Both the position numbers and the translations under genes were made by a program. A DNA stretch of 64,000 nucleotides, from assembly GCF_000711225.1 (NCBI RefSeq), contig NZ_JOMG01000004.1, forward strand, positions 186,001-250,000, in the 5' to 3' direction. Source of the DNA: Pelobacter seleniigenes DSM 18267. Its GTDB lineage: Bacteria; Desulfobacterota; Desulfuromonadia; Desulfuromonadales; Geopsychrobacteraceae. Of the stretch, positions 21,599-22,079 are shown piece after piece. The notes beneath the pieces were generated by a model. That model searched no databases. It was given only the letters and a program-made list of their open reading frames with translations, and had not been told where the DNA came from. Each line of letters starts with the position of its first letter. The stretch's first letter is position 1.

Positions 21599-21742
21599 CT
21601 GCAAAACCTTTTAGCATCGAGCCGATTGCGGGAAAATATTGAAGCAAGGCTAAACCTTACTAAACCACTGAAAAATATTCAAGAGGTTTGTTCTTTTCTC
21701 TGCTGTGGTTTTGCCGTGGGGATTCTTTTCGCCTGCTGTTCC

Positions 21743-21925
21743 GAATGGCGCTCGTTTAAGCAACTTTGCAGTAAACTCGGGACTGTCCCCAGGGTCATCG
21801 GGGGCTGTCCCAAGAGTTTGCGAGCCATGAAACTGTCGCGGTTAGCACCGCAAAGACCTGGGGCAGCCCCCCGGGCGGGGACCGTCCCGGTTTTGCTGCC
21901 AGCGACTCTTAAACGAGCGTCATTC
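21743..21925. repeat. Nested inverted-repeat element, REP/BIME-like
   Basis: The outer arms are GAATGGCGCTCGTTTAAG (21743-21760) and CTTAAACGAGCGTCATTC (21908-21925), 17 of 18 paired. Inside them GGGACTGTCCCC (21779-21790) faces GGGGACCGTCCC (21877-21888). An inner pair, GGGGGCTGTCCC (21800) and GGGGCAGCCCCC (21860), is spaced by about 48 bases. Such GGGAC/GTCCC-rich nested dyads resemble REP/BIME units mobilised by TnpA-REP (Y1) transposases. No transposase gene is nearby. Confidence 0.75.
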
Positions 21926-21945
21926 CCTGATGTCCCGATATTCTC

Positions 21946-22079
21946 CTAGTGCCCTGAGCGGTTAGTTCTATAGTCTAATTCTGGCCCTTTTTACTGCTGT
22001 CTACGTTCTGCCTTCTCGGCTTGGCAGCAGTAAAAATGACTCAGAATTTATACAAATAACTAACCGCACAGGACACTAG
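21946..22079. repeat. 134-bp MITE-like palindrome with CTAG ends
   Basis: Arms of about 54 bases start CTAGTGCCCTGAGCGGTTAG and end with the near-perfect inverse CTAACCGCACAGGACACTAG. Inner arm ends ACTGCTG / CAGCAGT flank a 25-base centre. The CTAG boundary contains a TA, as expected for insertion by IS630/Tc1-mariner transposases. No coding capacity. It is most likely a miniature transposable element or a remnant of one. Confidence 0.75.

Follow-up and report, generated by a model that had tools for sequence, protein, structure and literature searches.

A nested inverted-repeat element between divergent genes

The window analysed here is a stretch of 64,000 nucleotides, and the element of interest occupies positions 21743-21925 of it, between two divergent genes. 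A sequence-only reading had described three levels of inverted repeats sharing one axis, and the layout itself was confirmed: the outer arms (21743-21760 and 21908-21925) pair at 17 of 18 positions and enclose a middle pair of dyads, GGGACTGTCCC/GGGACCGTCCC, and an inner pair, GGGGCTGTCCC/GGGGCAGCCCC. The features are listed below; none is assigned to a strand.

21732-21742, no strand: left copy of the target-site duplication, 11 bp, CCTGCTGTTCC, 9/11 identical to the right copy CCTGATGTCCC
21743-21760, no strand: left terminal inverted repeat, 18 bp, of IS4-subgroup type (from its genomic count and the same 18 bp on a 1555-bp insertion sequence in a relative, G091)
21761-21769, no strand: left arm, end to core, poorly conserved (mean pairwise identity 0.48, 14 elements)
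21770-21821, no strand: core hairpin A, a REP-like unit with sharp boundaries and a foot that covaries locally
21779-21789, no strand: dyad 1, GGGACTGTCCC (middle pair), identical to the target consensus
21801-21811, no strand: dyad 2, GGGGCTGTCCC (inner pair); the equivalent dyad at locus L123 holds a nested insertion
21822-21848, no strand: spacer between hairpins A and B
21849-21897, no strand: core hairpin B, a REP-like unit inverted relative to A
21860-21870, no strand: dyad 3, GGGGCAGCCCC (inner pair)
21878-21888, no strand: dyad 4, GGGACCGTCCC (middle pair); most copies have GGGACAGTCCC
21898-21907, no strand: right arm, core to end, poorly conserved (mean pairwise identity 0.53, 14 elements)
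21908-21925, no strand: right terminal inverted repeat, 18 bp
21926-21936, no strand: right copy of the target-site duplication, CCTGATGTCCC, 9/11 identical to the left copy

Within the window, the element is the sole 183-base stretch whose ends match at 16 or more of 18 positions. The arm pattern occurs twice at up to three mismatches (shuffle mean 0.22; one of 100 shuffles reached two), and the dyad motif alone is unremarkable, with four matches at up to one mismatch against a shuffle mean of 1.33 (6 of 100 shuffles reached four). Folding of the element surpassed all 200 shuffles as RNA of the plus strand (z -8.84), RNA of the minus strand (z -7.85) and single-stranded DNA (z -6.76). The element region contains four short terminator-like matches (for example plus strand, 21873-21887) as compared to 1.0 +/- 1.2 in shuffles; as previously noted, no long T-run is present in the sequence 3' of the element.

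A second MITE-like repeat lies at 21946-22079, separated from the element by the 20 bases that had been reported, and has ends of the form CTAGTG...CACTAG (CTAGTGYCCTG...CAGGACACTAG). We found about 27 loci of this neighbour in the host genome, with split pieces of single copies merged by eye, and five of these have an element of the type studied here within 100 bp; in 2000 random placements the number averaged 0.19 and reached 3 at most. The suggestion that the gap marks a preferred insertion site therefore holds genome-wide.

Copy number, IS4-type ends and a candidate transposase

Searches of the host genome (5,088,373 bases, or 5.09 Mb, in 6 contigs) revealed 124 sites for the 18-bp end at up to two mismatches, as compared to one for the reversed control pattern, and 127 occurrences of the dyad GGGACWGTCCC as compared to three for its control. 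Forty of 83 candidates were scored and nearly all proved full length; apart from the window copy itself, the 39 scored copies share 91-96% identity with it. From 67 fetched loci we recovered 51 elements with both ends, most of them 182-183 bp long, so that the genome holds at least 51 complete copies; counting truncated copies gives 69 clusters. A few copies carry internal deletions (lengths 134-166) or are chained. The family looks old in this genome, judging from the 91-96% identity, duplications that often differ by one or two bases and the lack of a transposase in the same genome.

Conservation in relatives was likewise evident, with element-like DNA in 37 of 147 genomes searched (the host genome included), representing 16 of 61 genera. 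For the 18-bp end itself, 29 genomes were picked from the 147 (25 of the 37 matching genomes and four non-matching ones). A scan of named records returned the end in at least 119 stretches, which among the matches listed belong mostly to Desulfuromonadales and Desulfobulbales, together with some Nitrospirae, PVC and Chloroflexi bins (record titles as given, MAG binning as deposited).

Element and duplication counts were restricted to copies with both ends at up to four mismatches and enough flank, truncated copies being left out. Across the 51 elements of the window type, the identity between left and right flanks is 0.78 at a length of 11, as compared to 0.23-0.34 at lengths of 6-10 and 12-14. 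The 11-bp duplication is shared by three further sets of elements with the same ends: a second MITE type (13 elements, identity 0.86), insertion sequences (19, identity 0.72) and other elements (19, identity 0.84). None of these length-11 identities involves a favourable choice of length or partner. Random pairing of left and right flanks lowered the match from 8.6 to 4.5 of 11 in the window type. The target consensus is GGGACWGTCCC (68 pairs, each at least 9/11 identical), and the targets show more palindromic symmetry than shuffled letters do (2.16 versus 1.29 of 5). Duplications at least 9/11 identical, as in the window copy, flank 32 of the 51 complete copies in the host genome; for this figure, and for the counts over 81 elements given below, whichever of 11 and 12 bp matched better was used, together with the partner end giving the best match, a choice that flatters the duplication figures. 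The second MITE type, seen at loci L116-L120 and L122-L124 in two relatives (G091 and G109), is 171-173 bp long and has the same IS4-type ends around a different interior.

An autonomous element with these ends is present in G091, where seven exact end pairs lie exactly 1555 bp apart and every such unit carries a 490-codon open frame. The frame at L112 yields a 489-aa protein that matches NF033592 (IS4 family, E 7.9e-64) and PF01609 (E 6.8e-26), with Y(2)R(3)E(6)K spacing as read off the translation. The IS4 subgroup is characterised by ends of the form -AATR--------WTW, duplications of 10-13 bp, lengths of 1400-1650 bp and a YREK motif (PMC2266710); going by the part of that source at hand, the G091 element (1555 bp, 11 bp, GAATGGCGCTAGTTTAAG, YYKRWDVELFFRDIK) fits all four features, whereas the window element is geneless and has an interior unlike that of the insertion sequence. 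The ends alone are common to the G091 insertion sequence and the window MITE, their interiors being unrelated.

The window element is short and non-coding, bears terminal inverted repeats, exists in many copies and is flanked by an 11-bp target-site duplication. As judged by sequence, it is a MITE of the IS4 subgroup rather than a RAYT element, since the G091 insertion sequence combines identical 18-bp ends and the same kind of 11-bp duplication with an IS4-family transposase. An autonomous partner in the same genome is usual for a MITE, though not essential. At E 1e-30 the 489-aa transposase has matches in 24 of 391 genomes searched and none in the host genome, where none of the six PF01609 hits is bracketed by the 18-bp ends; the probable mobiliser is absent from this genome. 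The 389-aa transposases of the host genome were considered as partners and rejected, as their ends do not match. These DDE transposases are encoded by three near-identical insertion sequence copies (L046, L047 and L048), of which the one at L047 is cut short at the start of a RAYT unit.

A REP-like core that is dispersed on its own

The whole core (21770-21897) sits between the divergent arms. Over 14 full elements, identity is 0.89-0.90 in the ends and 0.84 in the core, as compared to the values of 0.48 and 0.53 in the intervening arms. Of 37 loci listed for the core set, four lacked a core and the remaining 33 were used for folding and foot pairing; core orientation was picked by score or by hand, and one core alignment (A1), which contains L084 in the opposite orientation, was used descriptively. 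Nearly all of the 33 cores run from AGYAAA to TTTRCT. Local pairing of their six-base feet is seen in 0.987 of cells and crosswise pairing in 0.770, and shuffling partners among cores lowered local pairing in 1000 of 1000 trials, although kinship of the sequences inflates such counts. Double changes are seen in the feet, from AAAC/GTTT to AAAG/CTTT and AAAT/ATTT. This local rather than crosswise pairing indicates that the evolving units are two separate hairpins, 21770-21821 and 21849-21897. What stands of the single axis originally proposed is the nested fold, which has the lowest energy in most whole cores; the feet, however, follow the two-hairpin arrangement. With whole-core minima mostly nested despite local foot pairing, either fold may form.

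The core is an inverted dimer of short palindromic units, as in REPs and BIMEs, and also occurs without IS4-type ends. In one relative (G098) we found no ends at up to one mismatch and 21 matches to the unit, for which 19 chosen genomes were searched; eight complete cores of 141-145 bp lie there in mostly unrelated flanks. Four or five of them have a short flank sequence in common, and some may therefore sit within another element. The core search took in thirteen genomes, and in a second relative (G003) 20 core loci were fetched out of many listed: the left end was found in five and the right end in two at up to six mismatches, with both at one locus. Taking G003, G098 and three other loci together, 25 of 31 cores are naked, i.e. 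lack IS4-type ends. In the flanks of these 25, no duplication of length 4-14 stands out, and lengths 2 and 3 are slightly above shuffles (reached by 30 and 25 of 500); like REPs, the naked core lacks a target duplication. An empty site could be aligned for one core (L070) in G029, G026 and G019 out of seven candidates. As compared to the empty site of G029, the filled site is longer by about 29 bases, and the start of the insert is not clean at the unit, the empty site already having AGCAAAAC.

Given naked copies with sharp unit boundaries and no end remnant, we infer that the core was captured by the ends, rather than the ends being lost from naked copies; some naked copies could nonetheless be truncated MITEs.

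Half units are also present (L079 and L080). At L079, in a region that appears prophage-like by eye, half-core hairpins lie inside reading frames at 398-450 and 1506-1555, matching places of two similar genes. We considered these half units as ends of an autonomous element and rejected this, the ORFs between them bearing no sign of a transposase by eye. At L310, L313 and L392 (G098 and G003), some cores lie between flanks ending in AACTATTCA / TGAATAGTT or similar, possibly another type of transposon carrying the same core.

Within the core, the dyads take the form GGG-N5-CCC, two per hairpin. Dyads 1, 2 and 4 are at most one base from the target consensus, and dyad 3 is two bases off. Among 22 MITE sequences with these ends, 13 belong to other types and contain no dyads, so the dyads are specific to the window type. 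In G109, an other-type MITE was found inside a dyad of a window-type element in three cases (L121, L122 and L123), each with an 11-bp duplication. Of the 81 elements whose duplication is clean, three are nested in this way, and so small a number lends weak support to the notion that the carried dyads act as landing pads. Chained copies also exist in the host genome (for example C2:2001919-2002357); the one examined, L017, has no clean duplication. Five of the 81 IS4-type targets are GGGACACTCCC, within a REP-like repeat at L033-type RAYT ends.

A probable composite MITE and its alternatives

We consider it quite probable that the element is a composite MITE, consisting of IS4-subgroup ends moved in trans by a DDE transposase and a captured REP-like dimer whose dyads may reseed targets. 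A DDE transposase of the G091 kind, supplied in trans, would have excised the element by its ends and inserted it at 11-bp sites similar to GGGACWGTCCC, with duplication of those sites. The interior would be a captured, independently dispersed dimer of two inverted hairpins with two GGG-N5-CCC dyads each. Since the carried dyads resemble the preferred target of the transposase, each insertion would lay fresh target sites, which same-end elements would occasionally enter.

A more tentative proposal, which we think somewhat doubtful, is that MITE and core form a self-seeding pair: the MITE would carry four near-copies of the ideal target of its mobilising transposase, and the REP-like module would hitchhike on a DDE transposon in addition to its own spread. 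If so, each insertion would create further sites where elements of its kind could land harmlessly, and the strong conservation of the core would reflect selection as a target, as a hairpin substrate or as both. In MITEs, conservation is expected for the ends alone. Here the interior, a separate and mobile-looking repeat that resembles the target favoured by the transposase, is conserved almost as strongly as the ends. Two questions become testable in this way: by what means REP-like repeats lacking an evident transposase of their own are spread, and whether a transposon family benefits from bearing the target that it uses. For experimental work in Desulfuromonadales and their neighbours, the system further offers a candidate partner transposase along with a defined target. 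Multicopy intergenic repeats of these groups have been catalogued in genome papers, as the available parts of two of them describe (PMC2996986, PMC3543383).

We did not meet the element in the open-access literature, searched by dyad and end sequences and by topic. The closest precedents, by analogy and from the portions of the sources at hand, are QMITE2 of Coxiella burnetii and ISRm22, with QMITE2 the nearest description. QMITE2 is a MITE of 150-190 bp with terminal inverted repeats, duplications of 7-11 nt and a REP inside; its small copies without terminal repeats or duplications resemble REPs, and the REP is an insertion target of IS1111 (PMC5896051). It thus shares with our element a MITE enclosing a REP, REP-like small copies without terminal repeats and the REP as a target, whereas the inserter there, IS1111, does not share the ends of the MITE; this comparison is by description. 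ISRm22 of Sinorhizobium is an IS4-family element that inserts at the axis of a palindromic REP (PMC1525189). Like other REP-targeting insertion sequences, it parallels our case in IS4-family ends entering a palindromic REP, and differs in its 6-bp duplication; no target-carrying MITE is described in the available part of that report. GTAG REPs, BIMEs and REPINs are tagged palindromic units, often in inverted dimers, and hybrid dimers are described (PMC3733652, PMC8266576, PMC3116915). The core shares the inverted dimer of palindromic units; as far as the excerpts of those sources go, it differs in that its unit is about 50 nt long with two dyads, exact GTAG is rare and a RAYT partner was not found. 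The Chunjie MITE of Geobacter uraniireducens (178-235 bp, with 38 copies having conserved TIRs and DRs and 57 partial ones) is of similar size and from a related group, and was compared by description rather than sequence from part of its source (PMC10969869). The kind of ends is known; the variant here is a MITE with a REP-like passenger and target-like sites inside.

The sequence-only reading had leaned towards REP/BIME units, and its stronger form, in which the whole element is a REP/BIME (REPIN) moved as single-stranded DNA by a Y1 (RAYT) transposase, seems to us improbable. What survives of it is the core, which resembles a REP-type hairpin dimer, with two inverted hairpins dispersed alone and without target duplication, and whose outer ends are biased towards (G/T)(C/T)AG (GCAG in 63 of 74 host-genome ends; GTAG in 9 and TCAG in 19 of 60 naked ends). 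Furthermore, a single unit in G115 and G098 is found about 75 bases away from GGGACACTCCCC, which is also the repeat at L033-type RAYT ends, and an indirect RAYT link is possible. The outer arms, however, are IS4-subgroup transposon ends, and their exact 11-bp target duplication contradicts Y1 activity for the complete element. A target duplication is not expected from a Y1 transposase. Exact GTAG is rare at core ends (8/74, 14/62 and 9/60 in three sets), and G041 (78% complete) has unit matches without a Y1 match. The Y1 gene flanked by the same dyads that had been anticipated did not materialise: two of seven Y1 loci in the host genome have dyads near, each solely as a complete IS4-type MITE with its own duplication (11/11 at L035; 10/11 at L021, the same copy as in L036), and the hairpin unit occurs in the fetched flanks of 0 of 28 Y1 loci in six relatives, seven chosen genomes having been searched for Y1. 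Neither in the host genome nor in these six relatives was a RAYT gene flanked by the core repeat. RAYT mobilisation of the whole element was rejected on its IS4-type ends, its 11-bp duplication and the absence of a bracketed Y1 gene.

Even less likely, in our estimation, is that the core represents fossil target duplications, in which IS4-type elements inserted within one another and were lost time after time, leaving behind four GGG-N5-CCC copies whose pairing is fortuitous. Such an origin would suit the resemblance of the dyads to the target consensus and the existence of nested insertions in them, but the dyads lie 11 and 7 bases apart in their respective hairpins with no end remnants, and the feet, which do not belong to the target sequence, are conserved and covary locally. 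Dispersal of the module without ends, as in G098, also points against it. We find it very hard to credit that the element serves the flanking genes as a transcription terminator or a regulatory RNA element. Its RNA fold is very stable and short terminator-like matches lie inside, yet copies bearing target duplications are scattered by the dozen, a search of Rfam at E up to 1 gave no match, and the element is placed between divergent genes, where a terminator for either is unexpected. In placing the element with mobile, multicopy repeats rather than terminators, the initial reading was correct. A secondary effect of the element on expression is possible.

Three RAYT-like genes of the host genome (L033, L034 and L035; G000 C1:363753-377363) are about 95% identical and each follow AACTAGGGACACTGCCCC. 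At L035, the RAYT-like gene takes its stop codon from the end of a MITE that has inserted there (GAATGGCGCTAG = E-W-R-stop).
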